DNA of 38,924 bases from assembly GCA_001767495.1 (NCBI GenBank), contig MELA01000132.1:1-38924 (forward strand), written 5' to 3'. The position numbers and the translations under genes are program-made. The number at the start of each line of letters is the position of its first letter. The first letter of the stretch is position 1. The DNA is from Acidobacteria bacterium RIFCSPLOWO2_12_FULL_65_11. Lineage in GTDB: Bacteria > Acidobacteriota > Vicinamibacteria > Vicinamibacterales > CAVVIG01. This document shows positions 8,085 through 38,924 of the stretch, one piece after another. The notes under the pieces are model-generated. The model saw only the letters and a program-made list of their open reading frames with translations, did no database searches and was not told the origin of the DNA.

Positions 8085-8520
8085 ATGCGCAACATTGCTG
8101 CCTCAGCCATCGAGCCGTGGCGGCGGCTGGGTGGCTTGCCCCGGCCCGTGTGGGTGACGTGTGTCACCACGTTCATCAGCCGCATCGGGACGATGGCGCT
8201 GCCGTTTCTCGCGCTGTATCTCACCGAAGAGCAGCACTACTCGGAGTCGCGCGCCGGGATTGCCGTGGCTTGTTACGGCTTTGTGGGGTTTCTCACGGCG
8301 CCGTACGCCGGGCGGCTGACCGACCGGCTCGGGCCCGTGCGCCTGATGCGCTGGTCGCTCGCGCTGGCTGGCCTGGCCATGTTCATCGTGCCCTTCATGT
8401 CGGCATTGGCGGGACCGTGCTCCAACATTTTGGTCCGACGGTTCTCTGGACCGGTGCCTGGGCGGTCGGCGCGCTCTCCACCGTGATGCTCGCAATGGTG
8501 CCGCACCCACATAACCTGTA
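8085..8520 (+). pseudogene. MFS transporter with internal deletion and frameshift (right of TA module)
   Basis: N-terminal ~110 aa of an MFS protein (VTCVTTFISRIGTMALPFLALYLTEEQHYSESRAGIAVACYGFVGFLTAPYAGRLTDRLGPVRLMRWSLALAG) then a frame change into 'GGTVLQHFGPTVLWTGAWAVGALSTVMLAMVPHP', an MFS C-terminal segment. Confidence 0.75.
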
Positions 8521-8542
8521 GTGTCCGCCTTCAGGCGGACCT
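8512..8542 (+). repeat. Short palindromic repeat (REP-like) copy 1, GSC=GCC stem
   Basis: taacctgtagtgtccgccttcaggcggacct. Confidence 0.9.
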
Positions 8543-8604
8543 GAGGAGAACTTGCCCTCCTGATCGGCGGGCTCGCCGCTCAGGTATAACTGAGTGCACC
8601 ACAC

Positions 8605-11170: not shown

Positions 11171-11199
11171 GTCCGCCTGAAGGCGGACACTACAGGTTA
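11171..11199 (-). repeat. REP-like copy 2 (GCC stem); supplies the TerC stop codon
   Basis: gtccgcctgaaggcggacactacaggtta; reverse complement identical to copy 1 over 29 nt. Confidence 0.9.
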
Positions 11200-13156: not shown

Positions 13157-13210
13157 GTTCGGCCCCTTTTTCGACAGACGCGTTCTCCTGGACAGAGCGT
13201 ATTATGTTCC

Positions 13211-13280
13211 AGGTCCGGCTGAAGCCGGACACTACAGGTTAGGAACTGGAGAACTGTAGTGTCCGGCTTCAGCCGGACCT
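13211..13280. repeat. Inverted REP doublet (copies 3 and 4)
   Basis: 27-nt perfect inverted arms AGGTCCGGCTGAAGCCGGACACTACAG (13211-13237) / CTGTAGTGTCCGGCTTCAGCCGGACCT (13254-13280), 16-nt spacer. Confidence 0.95.
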
Positions 13281-13288
13281 GGCGCGTC

Positions 13289-25678: not shown

Positions 25679-25789
25679 GGTCCGGCTAAAGCCGGACACT
25701 ACAAAACTTCGGCTGAAGCCGGACACTACGTACCCCGCGACGTACGCCTGACACGCCGTACTGTCGTAGTGTCCGCCTTCAGGCGGACC
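25679..25789. repeat. REP cluster: 25679-25702(-), truncated 25710-25729(-), 25766-25789(+)
   Basis: ggtccggctaaagccggacactac / cggctgaagccggacactac / gtagtgtccgccttcaggcggacc. Confidence 0.9.
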
Positions 25790-25821
25790 GTAAGAGTATA
25801 TATTTGACTCGCGTCGCCTTC

Positions 25822-26971: not shown

Positions 26972-27150
26972 GGTCCGGCTGAAGCCGGACACTACATGAT
27001 GAGCACTGAAGCCGGACACGACATGATGAGCACGACATGATGAGCAAGATCTGTTGCGGACTGTCCGGTTTCAGATCGTAGACAGACGTGGTAGATAGAC
27101 GTGGTAGATAGAGGTGCTAGACAGACGTAGTGTCCGGCTTCAGCCGGACC
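26972..27150. repeat. REP cluster with tandem arrays: 26972-26995(-), truncated 27006-27022(-), GACATGATGAGCA-type repeats to ~27046, four 13-nt units at 27078-27129, REP 27127-27150(+)
   Basis: GTAGACAGACGTG / GTAGATAGACGTG / GTAGATAGAGGTG / CTAGACAGACGTA followed directly by gtgtccggcttcagccggacc. Confidence 0.88.
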
Positions 27151-28228
27151 TTCCTGACGTCGGAATCGGATGGACGACGTGCCGTCCGATCCTGCCCGTT
27201 GAATCGCGGAGGACCTGAAAGAAGCACTCGATGAGGTCGGCGCGCCGCCGTCCGCGCTGCACGTCGTCGCGGAGATGGTCGCGTGCAGTGTCGACAGAAA
27301 GCGCGGGACGGTACAGCCGGTCGGTGGTCAACGCATCGAAGACATCCACGATGCCGACGATCTGAGCCAGCAGAGGGACGGCGTCGCCCCTCAGGCCGTC
27401 CGGATAGCCGCTCCCGTCCAGACACTCGTGATGGTGGCGGATGATCGACCGGGCCTTCTTGAGCGAGAGTAGCCCGGCACACAGATCGTCGCCGACGATT
27501 GTGTGCCGCTTCATCACGTCGTATTCGGCCGCCGTGAGCGGGCCGGGCTTGAGGAGAATCGCGTCGGGCACGCCGATCTTGCCCAAATCGTGGAGGAAGC
27601 CGCCGCGACGCAGCGCGCGCAGGTCGTCGCCGGTCAGGCCCAGACGCTCGCCGACGGCGGCGCCGTACGCCGCCAGGCGCTCGCAATGGCCCTTGGTGTA
27701 CGGATCCCGGGCCTCGATGGTCACGGCGAGCGCCGTCATCACGACCTCGATCGATTCGAGGTTGTCGGTGTCCTTCTTCAGTTTGACAAGCGCGCGCACG
27801 CGTGCCAGCAACTCGTCGGCCGCGATCGGCTTGCCAAGCACATCGTCGGCGCCGACGTTGGCGGCCTGGGTGAGCAGGTCAGGATCCTTCTGGGCGGTGA
27901 CCAGCACGACCGGCGTGAATCGCGTGCCGATGTCACTCTTCAGGCGCCGGCAGACTTCGAGTCCGCTCAGGCCGGGCATCGAGACGTCAAGCAGGACGAC
28001 GTCTGGGCCTTCGCGGTTGACCGCCCGCAGGCCCGCGTGGCCGTCTGGCGCGCTCGACACGGCGTAGCCCTGCCGTGTGAGCAAACGGCTCAGGATGTCC
28101 ACGATGGCTGGCTGGTCGTCGATGACGAGCACCTTCGCCTTCGCGGGGACCAAACCGACGTTTCGCAGTCGCGCTGTTCGGTCTGTCGGGACGAGTGACA
28201 ACGGCTCTGACAGGCTGCAGGGAACCAA
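27140..28228 (-). CDS. Response regulator with HD-GYP domain (putative c-di-GMP phosphodiesterase)
   Basis: KVLVIDDQPAIVDILSRLL...VVLLDVSMPGLSGLEV receiver; GGFLHDLGKIGVPDAIL, RHHHECLDGSGYPDGLRGDAVPLLAQIVGIVDVFDALTTDRLYRPA. Start uncertain. Confidence 0.93.
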   Translation of the reverse strand: MVPCSLSEPLSLVPTDRTARLRNVGLVPAKAKVLVIDDQPAIVDILSRLLTRQGYAVSSAPDGHAGLRAVNREGPDVVLLDVSMPGLSGLEVCRRLKSDIGTRFTPVVLVTAQKDPDLLTQAANVGADDVLGKPIAADELLARVRALVKLKKDTDNLESIEVVMTALAVTIEARDPYTKGHCERLAAYGAAVGERLGLTGDDLRALRRGGFLHDLGKIGVPDAILLKPGPLTAAEYDVMKRHTIVGDDLCAGLLSLKKARSIIRHHHECLDGSGYPDGLRGDAVPLLAQIVGIVDVFDALTTDRLYRPALSVDTARDHLRDDVQRGRRRADLIECFFQVLRDSTGRIGRHVVHPIPTSGRSG

Positions 28229-28530
28229 GAGATACCTCGATAAGGCGGTTGCCTACGCGGTAATGTCTGCCTGTATGCGGACTTTCTCAAGTCCAACTGA
28301 GCTACGACATTACGAAACGCCTCACATTCAGCACGAACCGTACCCGGCACAAGACAGCGGAATCGCCAGCCTGTTCAACAGATTCCGCGACCGTCCTGGC
28401 GCAGGCAGAGTGCGCTGTGCGGTTCAAACGCGCACAGTCCGCACGCTGTGCCCGCACGCTGCACGCCGGCAGACAGGATTGGTCAGCCTGTTTCAAAACC
28501 GTCGCGATCGCCTGCATTGGCGGCTTCATC

Positions 28531-28555
28531 TGTGGGGTCCGCCTTCAGGCGGACC
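28531..28555 (+). repeat. REP-like copy (GCC stem) upstream of GGDEF gene
   Basis: tgtggggtccgccttcaggcggacc. Confidence 0.85.
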
Positions 28556-29953: not shown

Positions 29954-30023
29954 GTCCGGCTCAAGCCGGACACTACGACAGACTCGGCAGCCCACAGATG
30001 TAGTGTCCGGCTTCAGCCGGACC
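29954..30023. repeat. Inverted REP doublet: 29954-29976(-), 30000-30023(+)
   Basis: gtccggctcaagccggacactac ... gtagtgtccggcttcagccggacc; between convergent GGDEF and SSS genes. Confidence 0.9.
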
Positions 30024-34459: not shown

Positions 34460-35818
34460 ATGAAAATCCTCTCGATTACAGCTGGGGCGGCTGGCATGTA
34501 CTGCGGCAGCTGCGGGCGCGACAACGCACTTGCCGTTGAGTTGATGGCGCGCGGCCACGACGTGACGCTGCTGCCGCTCTACACGCCGACGACGACCGAC
34601 GAAGAGAACGTCAGCAGAAACCAGGTGCTCTTCGGCGGGATCAGCATCTATCTCGAGCAGTATCTGGCTCTGTTCCGGCACACGCCGCGGTTCCTCGATC
34701 GGCTCTGGGACTCGCCGCGCGTGATCGGGGCGCTCGCGAGTCGATCGCTCTCGACCGATCCGAAGCTTCTCGGCGACATGACGATCTCGATGCTCGAGGG
34801 CGATCGCGGCGTGCTGCGCAAGGAATTCGTCAAGCTGAGCGAGTGGCTCGCCGACGAGCCCGTGCCCGACCTCGTCAACCTGCCGAACTCGCTGCTGATC
34901 GGGCTCGCCAGGCCGCTGCGAGAGATCCTGAAGCGCCCGATCTGCTGCACGCTGCAGGGCGAGGATCTGTTTCTCGAGGGCCTCATCGAGCCGTACCGCA
35001 CGCGAGCGATCGAGCTGATTCGCCGTCAGGTTCGGGACGCGGACTGTTTTCTCTCGGTCAGCGACTACTATGTGCCGGTGATGTCGCGACTGCTAGGCAT
35101 CCCGCCCGGCCGTATGGCGGTTGTTCCCCTCGGTATCAACCTGTCCGGCTACGAGCCGAGAACCGCGCGCCGATCGGAGGCCCAAACACCCGGGCGCGCT
35201 GAAGACGACGAATTTCGCGTCGGGTACTTCGCGCGTATCGCGCCCGAAAAAGGCCTGCACGTGCTGGCCGCTGCCTACGAGCGGTTCCGTGGCCGCACGG
35301 GCGGCGCGCGCGTGAGGCTCGAAGTGGCGGGATACATGTCGCACGCGCATGCGGCGTATCTTGAAAGTGTGCGGACTGCGCTCGACAAGGCCGGACTGGC
35401 CGGCGAGTTCGCGTATCGAGGCGCCGTCGATCGGCGCGGCAAGCTGGCGTTCCTTCGGTCGCTCGACGTGCTGTCGGTGCCGGCGACCTACGACGAGCCC
35501 AAGGGCGTGTTTCTCCTCGAGGCGATGGCGAGCGGCGTCCCCGTCGTGCAGCCGCGCCGCGGCGCGTTCACCGAGATCGTCGAGCGGACCGGCGGCGGCA
35601 TGCTCGTCGCGCCCGACGACCCGGTGGCGCTCTCCGACGGCCTGTACTCCCTCTGGCAGGATCGCGCGCGGGCCGCGCGGCTCGGACAGGCTGGCGTTGA
35701 GGGCGTCCGCGCGCATTACACGATCGCCCGCGCCGCCGATCGTCTGCTCGAGGTTTACGAGAAGGTTCGAGGTTCAGCTGTAGTGTCCGGCTTCAGCCGG
35801 ACGTCGAAGTCCGCCTAA
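34460..35818 (+). CDS. GT4-family glycosyltransferase
   Basis: MKILSITAGAAGMYCGSCGRDNALAVELMARGHDVTLLPLYTP...FRVGYFARIAPEKGLHVLAAAYERF...VPATYDEPKGVFLLEAMASGVPVVQPRRGAFTEIVERTGGG. Confidence 0.92.
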   Translation: MKILSITAGAAGMYCGSCGRDNALAVELMARGHDVTLLPLYTPTTTDEENVSRNQVLFGGISIYLEQYLALFRHTPRFLDRLWDSPRVIGALASRSLSTDPKLLGDMTISMLEGDRGVLRKEFVKLSEWLADEPVPDLVNLPNSLLIGLARPLREILKRPICCTLQGEDLFLEGLIEPYRTRAIELIRRQVRDADCFLSVSDYYVPVMSRLLGIPPGRMAVVPLGINLSGYEPRTARRSEAQTPGRAEDDEFRVGYFARIAPEKGLHVLAAAYERFRGRTGGARVRLEVAGYMSHAHAAYLESVRTALDKAGLAGEFAYRGAVDRRGKLAFLRSLDVLSVPATYDEPKGVFLLEAMASGVPVVQPRRGAFTEIVERTGGGMLVAPDDPVALSDGLYSLWQDRARAARLGQAGVEGVRAHYTIARAADRLLEVYEKVRGSAVVSGFSRTSKSA

Positions 35819-35838
35819 AGGCGGACGCTACAGGTTAT
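35778..35838. repeat. REP doublet of mixed type: 35778-35802(+, GGC stem), 35809-35838(-, GCC stem)
   Basis: ctgtagtgtccggcttcagccggac gtcgaa gtccgcctaaaggcggacgctacaggttat. Confidence 0.92.
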
Positions 35839-35852
35839 CTAGACTGCCTGTC

Positions 35853-36539
35853 GTGTTGTTAGTCACCGATCTCAGCAAAGAATATCCGACGCCGCGCGGG
35901 CCGCTGTCGATCCTCGCGGGCGTCTCCTTCTCGCTCGCGCCGGGCGAGGCGGCCGCGATCATGGGGCCGTCTGGCAGCGGCAAGAGCTCGCTGCTGTACG
36001 TTCTGGGTGCGCTCGAGCCGCCGACTTCAGGCACCGTCACGCTCGACGGCCGCAATCCCTTCGATCTCGCGCCCGACGAGCTGGCGGCCTTTCGCAACAA
36101 GGCGATCGGCTTCGTCTTTCAGGATCACTGCCTGCTGCCGCAGTGCACGGTCCTCGAGAACGTGCTGATTCCCACGCTCGTGGCGCCGGCGACAGAAATC
36201 ACCGGGGCCGGCGGCGACGGCGTCACCGGGCACGCCCGGGGGCTCATCGAGCGGGTCGGACTCGGCGACCGAATCGACCATCGGCCGGGCGAGCTTTCGG
36301 GCGGGGAGCGGCAGCGCGTGGCGATTGCCCGGGCGCTCGTCCGCGAGCCGAGACTCGTCCTGTGCGACGAACCGACCGGCAATCTGGATCGGGCCTCGGC
36401 CGACAATGTGACTTCGCTGCTCCTCGACTTGCATCGCCAGCAGGGGACCTTGCTGATAGTTGTGACACACAGCCCGGCCCTGGCAGAACGGTTCCCCCTC
36501 CGGTTCGAGCTGGTCGATCGGCAACTTGTGAAAACGTGA
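35853..36539 (+). CDS. ABC transporter ATP-binding protein (LolD/MacB-like)
   Basis: IMGPSGSGKSSLLYVLGALEPPTSG (Walker A); LSGGERQRVAIARALVREPRLVLCDEPTGNLD. Confidence 0.95.
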   Translation: MLLVTDLSKEYPTPRGPLSILAGVSFSLAPGEAAAIMGPSGSGKSSLLYVLGALEPPTSGTVTLDGRNPFDLAPDELAAFRNKAIGFVFQDHCLLPQCTVLENVLIPTLVAPATEITGAGGDGVTGHARGLIERVGLGDRIDHRPGELSGGERQRVAIARALVREPRLVLCDEPTGNLDRASADNVTSLLLDLHRQQGTLLIVVTHSPALAERFPLRFELVDRQLVKT

Positions 36540-37548: not shown

Positions 37549-37629
37549 TAGAAGGCTCAGGGCTCAAGGCTCAAGGCTTAAGCCGACTTTAAGCCGTAGG
37601 CCTTGAGCCATAAGCCATAAGCCCTGAGC
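37549..37629. repeat. Imperfect inverted array of GGCTCAA/TTGAGCC and GGCTTAA/TTAAGCC units
   Basis: aggctcagggctcaaggctcaaggcttaagccgactttaagccgtaggccttgagccataagccataagccctgagcc, ending directly at the ATG of the permease. Confidence 0.8.
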
Positions 37630-37630
37630 C

Positions 37631-38924
37631 ATGCAGCCGCGTCACCTCGTTCTCCGCGGCCTCCTCTACTACTGGCGAACCAATGTCGCCGTCATGGCGG
37701 GCGTTGGCACTGCCGTCGCCGTGCTGGCGGGCGCGCTGCTCGTCGGCGACTCGGTCCGTGGCAGTCTGCGCGATCTCGTCCTTGAGCGGCTCGGCCGCAC
37801 CGACCACGCCATCGTCTCGTCGGGATTCTTTCGCGAGGCATTCGCCGACGACCTGCGCGTTGACGAGGCGTTCGGGGCGTCATTCGCGTCGGTCGCGCCG
37901 CTCATCGCCGTGCAAGGTGTCGTCAGCGAACAGGCGAGCGGCCGGCGCGCCTCGCGTGTGCTGGTGTATGGAGTGGACGACAGGTTCTGGCGCTTTCACG
38001 GCCTGACCGGCCCGCCGGCGCCCCTGACACCGGAGGGACGCGACGCGCTCGTCAGCCGAGCGCTCGCCGCAGAGATCGGCGCCCTCGTCGATGGCTCCGT
38101 GCTGGTGCGCCTGGAGCGGCCGTCGGCTGTCCCGGTCGAATCGCTGCACGGTCGCAAAGACGATCTGGGCCGCACGCTGCGCCTGACCGTTCGGGGCGTG
38201 CTCGGTCCTGAATATCTGGGTGAGTTCTCGCTGCAGCCCCAGCAGAGTGAGGTGCGGGCCGTGTTCGTGCCGCTCGCGCGACTTCAGCGGGAACTCGATC
38301 TCGCTGGTCGAGTGAACACGCTTCTCGTGTCGGACCGGGTCGAAACGCCGGGTCCAGCAGGACCCGGCCTACGTACGGAGACGGTACGGAGGGCGGGTCC
38401 TGTGGACCCGCCTGGAATATTGGAGGGGATTATCAGACGCCGGGCCACGCTCGCGGACATCGAGTTGACGCTGCGGCCGATCGAATCGCGCCACGAGCTG
38501 GCACTCGAGAGCGCGGCCGGCGTGATCGACCCGCCGCGCGAAGCCGCCGCCGCCGAGGCCGCGGCGGCCGCGGGCATGAAGGCGCAGCCGGTGTTCACCT
38601 ACCTGGCAAACAGCCTGCAGAGCGCCGACCGTCAGGTGCCGTACTCGCTGGTGACGGCCATGGACCTTGGCTCGATCGCGAACCTGCCGGCCGGTGCCGC
38701 CGGGTCGTCCGCACCTCCGCCCATCGTGCTGAACGAGTGGACGGCTCGCGATCTTCGGGTGACGCCGGGCGATCCGCTGACGCTCGAGTACTACGTCTGG
38801 GAAGAACCGGGCCGCCTGGTCGAACGCACGGCCGAGTTTCGAATCGCGGCGGTGGTGCCCATCACGGGCGCCGCGGCCGACCGGGATCTCGCTCCCGTCT
38901 ATCCGGGCCTCACCGACGCCGATA
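37631..38924 (+). CDS. ABC transporter permease (FtsX/MacB-like), partial, runs off window
   Basis: MQPRHLVLRGLLYYWRTNVAVMAGVGTAVAVLAGALLVGDSVRGSLRDLVLERLGRTDHAIVSSGFFREAF...; open to the window end (hence absent from the ORF track). Confidence 0.85.
   Translation, partial: MQPRHLVLRGLLYYWRTNVAVMAGVGTAVAVLAGALLVGDSVRGSLRDLVLERLGRTDHAIVSSGFFREAFADDLRVDEAFGASFASVAPLIAVQGVVSEQASGRRASRVLVYGVDDRFWRFHGLTGPPAPLTPEGRDALVSRALAAEIGALVDGSVLVRLERPSAVPVESLHGRKDDLGRTLRLTVRGVLGPEYLGEFSLQPQQSEVRAVFVPLARLQRELDLAGRVNTLLVSDRVETPGPAGPGLRTETVRRAGPVDPPGILEGIIRRRATLADIELTLRPIESRHELALESAAGVIDPPREAAAAEAAAAAGMKAQPVFTYLANSLQSADRQVPYSLVTAMDLGSIANLPAGAAGSSAPPPIVLNEWTARDLRVTPGDPLTLEYYVWEEPGRLVERTAEFRIAAVVPITGAAADRDLAPVYPGLTDAD
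38348..38412. repeat. Second palindromic repeat doublet located in-frame within the permease CDS
   Basis: ccgggtcc-agca-ggacccgg ... ggcgggtcc-tgt-ggacccgcc. Confidence 0.85.

Follow-up and report, generated by a model that had tools for sequence, protein, structure and literature searches.

How did a pair of perfect hairpins come to lie, in frame, within an ABC transporter permease gene? The sequence analyzed here (the window) is the whole of the 38,924-nt contig MELA01000132.1 from assembly GCA_001767495.1, Acidobacteria bacterium RIFCSPLOWO2_12_FULL_65_11. An earlier note on this DNA had described the hairpins as a second palindromic repeat family inserted into the permease ORF, and had proposed that such insertion is an unusual route to protein innovation. 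We examined the doublet itself, its relatives elsewhere in this and other genomes, and the loop of the protein in which it is found.

The hairpin doublet and the permease gene

The sequence is as the earlier note described it: two 9-bp hairpins, placed head to head, are joined within an open permease ORF, and all 9 base pairs form in both stems. The extent given there, 38335-38425, does contain the doublet, but the repeat proper is shorter (38347-38412), and the tags of its two units point inward, facing one another. The features of this region are as follows.

35853-36539, + strand: ABC ATPase gene upstream of the permease, its probable partner
37631-38923, + strand: ABC permease gene of FtsX/MacB_PCD type with a LolE-like periplasmic domain; the insert corresponds to about residues 240-261
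38347-38412, no strand assigned: F2 REP doublet (BIME/REPIN-like), an in-frame insert of exactly 66 nt, or 22 codons
38347-38368, - strand: hairpin of REP unit 1, GCCGGGTCC-AGCA-GGACCCGGC, 3' of the GTAG tag on that strand
38369-38372, - strand: GTAG tag of unit 1 (CTAC on the + strand)
38373-38387, no strand assigned: spacer separating the two tags
38388-38391, + strand: tag of unit 2, GTAG mutated to GGAG
38392-38412, + strand: hairpin of REP unit 2, GGCGGGTCC-TGT-GGACCCGCC

The permease frame is open throughout the doublet and reads VETPGPAGPGLRTETVRRAGPVDPPGIL; the tryptic peptides predicted from the insert region are VETPGPAGPGLR and AGPVDPPGILEGIIR. The doublet also forms one long hairpin, with a calculated stability of -50.4 kcal/mol as RNA (z -5.8) and -31.9 kcal/mol as DNA (z -7.6). 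None of 200 shuffled sequences was as stable, for RNA or for DNA.

The 3' end of the permease gene is cut by the end of the contig, 512 nt downstream of the insert. The truncated protein gave no match to Pfam; a full-length homologue contains MacB_PCD and FtsX domains. An AlphaFold model (431 residues) resembles the periplasmic domains of LolE, LolC and MacB, and in it residues 241-260, with a mean pLDDT of 56-57, join the strand at 227-234 to the helix at 263-271. The domain matches and the model agree with the periplasmic location suggested previously, and the insert is predicted to lie in a disordered, length-variable loop of a MacB/LolE-like periplasmic domain.

Among 29 homologues, this loop ranges from 20 residues in genome G014 to 43-53 in G023 and G013; it is 41 residues long in the window and mostly 20-35 in the remainder. 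The doublet is absent from most of them. The alignment of VSDR-SATA-GALEAL with VSDR-VET-22 aa-GILEGI is consistent with a clean gain of 22 codons, with junctions that are inexact at the level of the base, the nearest permeases being about 70% identical and the loop varying by itself. Among these permeases there is no strain-level empty site for the doublet.

Immediately upstream of the permease start, at 37552-37632, are arrays of heptamers (AAGGCTC / TAAGCCA) with inverted halves. Comparable arrays lie close to further genes in this genome (L009, L059).

A dispersed family of GTAG-type REPs

The doublet is a member of a dispersed family, here termed F2, with the consensus GTAG-GSCGGGTCC-loop-GGACCCGSC. 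The published definition of GTAG REPs (PMC6006769) calls for a GTAG or GTGG tag 0-2 nt 5' of a short palindrome whose stem, of at least 7 nt, is fully paired around a loop of 2-5 nt. By this definition unit 1 is a regular element, with GTAG, a 9-bp stem and a loop of 4; unit 2 carries the one-base tag variant GGAG and a loop of 3. A BLASTN search of the window's own genome with a 161-bp segment gave 18 further matches, some of which represent a single place matched on its two strands. The pattern GGACCCGSCCTACGTA was matched 22 times in that genome with at most 1 mismatch, against a single match for the reversed control, and 42 times against 11 with at most 2 mismatches. This excess over the control, together with the BLASTN matches, argues that the hairpins are not a product of chance, and bears out the claim of a second repeat family.

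In a set of 120 genomes of relatives F2 is patchy. Genome G016, of the same family as the window's genome, has 226 matches and G024 has 59; G011, G023, G027 and G095 have roughly 10-20 each, and the other relatives few or none. F2 thus has the high dispersed copy number of the GTAG REP superfamily, and its host group is probably the Vicinamibacterales, within the Acidobacteriota.

The two stems of the doublet had been noted to differ by paired changes, and this difference extends through the family. The outer stem pair (the second pair) is G-C in 54 units of G016 and C-G in 49, with 3 unpaired (103/106 paired); in the window's genome the corresponding numbers are 7, 9 and 2 (16/18 paired). Since both types are about equally common and nearly always paired, the C-G versus G-C difference is simply the normal two-type make-up of F2. 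The tags are more worn in the window's genome, where 13 of 18 units retain an intact GTAG, than in G016, where 101 of 106 do. Most F2 clusters in G016 (38/55) are intergenic, compared with 6.4% of random 40-mers, and on these figures the family is mostly extragenic, as is the GTAG superfamily. In the window's genome, where the note had suggested looking for the repeat between genes, 5 of 15 clusters are intergenic against 10% at random, a small sample.

RAYT genes and the F1 family

RAYTs are REP-associated transposases of the HUH type that act on single strands. A single Y1_Tnp gene (C123) was detected in the window's genome, and its neighbours on the two flanks are copies of F1, the first palindromic family of the earlier note (GTAGTGTCCGGCTTCAGCCGGAC); no RAYT cognate to F2 was found in this metagenome-assembled genome, which is 98% complete in 153 contigs. 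However, genomes G016 (L080) and G024 (L079) each encode a RAYT with F2 arrays on both sides. This gene is also of Y1_Tnp type, bears the motifs MPDHVH and YI(L/V)ANP, and is about 46% identical to the RAYT of the window's genome. Because F2 arrays flank it, F2 is very probably the repeat of the G016/G024 RAYT. F2 therefore looks orphaned in the window's genome, its likely transposase surviving in relatives. By analogy with the REP literature we infer that F2 was moved by a RAYT. A REPtron, in which a RAYT gene sits between copies of its cognate repeat (PMC3733652), is found for F2 in G016 and G024 and was not found in the window's genome.

Copies of F1 within the window are located at 8512-8543, 11171-11199, 13209-13282, 25679-25790, 26972-27151, 28530-28554, 29954-30023 and 35778-35831. 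They are mostly intergenic; the copy at 35778 overlaps the 3' end of a gene. Two RAYT genes of other relatives (L084 and L088) are flanked by different REP families, in long and regular arrays with periods of 37 nt and 56 nt.

The permease loop in related genomes

Remnants of F2 were identified in the same permease loop of G013 and G023, both from the same family as the window's genome. In a codon-shuffle test for F2 in the loop, only the window reached the floor of p 0.005; G013 and G023 gave p 0.01-0.02 and the other homologues were weaker, all values being uncorrected for multiple tests. By the downstream GxL junction, the three sequences share the position and the frame of an F2 unit, the readings being RRAGPVDPPGIL, SRAGPLDAPGTL and RGAGSSDPGTL.

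Two further observations concern this loop. In G013 (L011) the inner arms of the first hairpin stand in swapped order relative to F2, GGACCC-ACA-GGGTCC, an arrangement that does not arise by simple inversion. Long in-frame insertions occur at two places in the G010 permease (L100/L116), this loop and the following one, and they share repeated DNA, with CGCCTGAAAGGCTCGCCCTCCG-like and GCGAGGCTTTCCGCCTTCGCTGAAGCTACGGCGGA stretches in both; in G010 a different repeat family used the same permease loops.

In-frame REPs in other genes

The window's genome has further in-frame REPs, in ComEC, a penicillin amidase, an MBL-fold protein, a TPR protein and two protein-kinase genes. Over 427 kb of its sequence, the clusters scored as intragenic number 5 of 15 for F2 and about 15 of 73 for F1, compared with 68% of random positions, and in 400 kb of G016 the count for F2 is 8/55. 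These fractions are rough, having been obtained with a home-made codon-usage gene caller (88% coding density) on contigs partly chosen for their F2 matches; a few intragenic calls are doubtful, such as degenerate F1 matches and L157:4221, which was called on the other strand. REPs thus avoid genes, and a sizeable minority lie in frame within them.

The penicillin amidase of the window's genome contains one F2 doublet and two F1 units in frame. The doublet falls between the segment matching the alpha chain of solved acylases and the one matching their beta chain; in this protein family that region is a spacer removed on maturation. F1 occupies the amidase loop preceding LTPDDF in the window's genome and likewise in G026, and F2 does so in G005 and G024; in most relatives this loop is short and REP-free. 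As G024 and G026 belong to one genus, F2 in the former and F1 in the latter are separate events. The ComEC loop has an F2 doublet in the window's genome; its counterpart in G016 has three F2 units in tandem. The same loops of ComEC and the amidase are hit in other genera, in some cases by the second of the two REP families. In G010 and G023 (L212, L216) the same ComEC loop has in-frame short tandem repeats, which read QVGRVGQIGQ... and NPANPAN.... Some caution is warranted in annotating such proteins, since stretches like VGRVLxDPP, VRLKPDTT and SVRLQPD are translations of REPs and not conserved motifs.

Origin of the insert

The explanation that best accounts for the locus, and in which we have high confidence, is that an F2 REP doublet was inserted in frame and tolerated in a disordered loop. 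A non-autonomous doublet of two inverted, GTAG-tagged REP hairpins would have entered the permease gene, moved by a RAYT whose cognate gene was not detected in the window's genome. With a length of 66 nt, a multiple of three, and no stop in the permease frame, it would have been accepted by a loop of the periplasmic domain that is disordered and varies in length. Survival would reflect purifying selection, with out-of-frame or core insertions being lost, and the peptide would be a neutral or near-neutral linker. REPs would then recur in the same loops through the tolerance of those loops. Counting against this explanation are the lack of a strain-level empty site among the permeases compared, the failure to find an F2-cognate RAYT in the window's genome, and the missing 3' part of the gene, only a truncated permease having been read. 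As to protein innovation, nothing in our analysis shows the peptide doing anything.

The shared place and frame of the F2 unit at the GxL junction might instead reflect a single insertion in a common ancestor of G013, G023 and the window's genome, maintained since by selection that acts on either the peptide or the hairpin. We regard this as possible but unlikely. Outside the loop, identity at 4-fold sites to G013 and G023 is 0.50-0.55, near saturation, yet both stems in the window are perfect; repeated insertion into, or refreshment of, one tolerant loop therefore fits better than a single neutral ancestral insertion. When the loop is left out, the tree does not bring the three genomes together (AU p 0.043 against one clade), a weak result on an unresolved backbone, and the amidase loop offers clearly separate F1 and F2 cases within one genus. 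The perfection of the stems despite saturation elsewhere, and the great stability of the fold, would also suit a functional hairpin, in which mRNA or DNA structure acts by slowing translation or as a protein-binding site, roles already suggested for intergenic REPs, the peptide being incidental. This seems improbable: a recent insertion, or repair by template switching, accounts for stems without mismatches, homologues without the hairpin are common, and an Rfam search gave no family above threshold.

Two further readings are both very improbable. The loop is length-variable and rich in Pro, Gly and Ala in many homologues, and the doublet could be ordinary ancestral coding sequence, palindromic by accident; but the genome-wide matches already refute such an origin, the repeat occurring in many unrelated places and around RAYT genes in relatives. 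Most homologues lack the peptide, in keeping with the note's view that it is not ancestral, and with F2 remnants in G013 and G023 the site is not unique. A misjoin of permease and REP near a metagenome contig end might be suspected in an assembly of 153 contigs, but homologous sequence adjoins the site to its left and right in one unbroken frame, and the independent assemblies G013 and G023 hold F2 in the same loop.

In-frame insertion of an F2 doublet into a tolerant loop thus remains the preferred account. It is doubtful that REPs and their RAYTs repeatedly supply linker peptides to the same permease, ComEC and amidase loops of different genera because insertion is directed to single-stranded or hairpin-forming sites or because longer loops are favoured. 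Recurrence in the same loops across genera, involving two REP families, might allow tolerance to be told apart from targeting or benefit, something a single case does not permit.

Comparison with known systems

The locus adds a case of a mobile non-coding repeat turned into protein sequence, with a candidate transposase and many relatives. The route itself, called unusual in the earlier note, is not new. Intragenic GTAG REPs are on record for a number of species, where more than half occur as dimers or in groups and encode 20-30 amino acids, and in one instance two Xanthomonas species carry different REPs at roughly one point in recB (Di Nocera et al. 2013, PMC3733652). F2 resembles these elements in being a short GTAG-tagged palindrome, often dimeric and found in ORFs, but differs in sequence, host group (Acidobacteriota), target genes and the lack of a detected cognate RAYT in the window's genome. 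Rickettsia palindromic elements (RPEs), an older precedent cited in PMC3733652 and PMC10969869, are likewise palindromes in frame in many unrelated functional genes. The likeness drawn here is one of kind only: RPE-1-type elements are longer (about 150 bp) and are assigned no RAYT in the accounts considered here, whereas F2 is GTAG-tagged and related genomes encode a RAYT for it. The doublet is also like the REPINs and BIMEs of Pseudomonas and E. coli, which consist of two inverted REPs and are RAYT-associated; unlike the intragenic F2 doublet, these are described mainly as extragenic (PMC3116915, PMC2817692). In-frame REPs are thus already known as a kind, to which F2 adds a member in an Acidobacteriota group; its most notable trait is recurrence in the same loops, of which Di Nocera et al. 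had noted one case, at recB.
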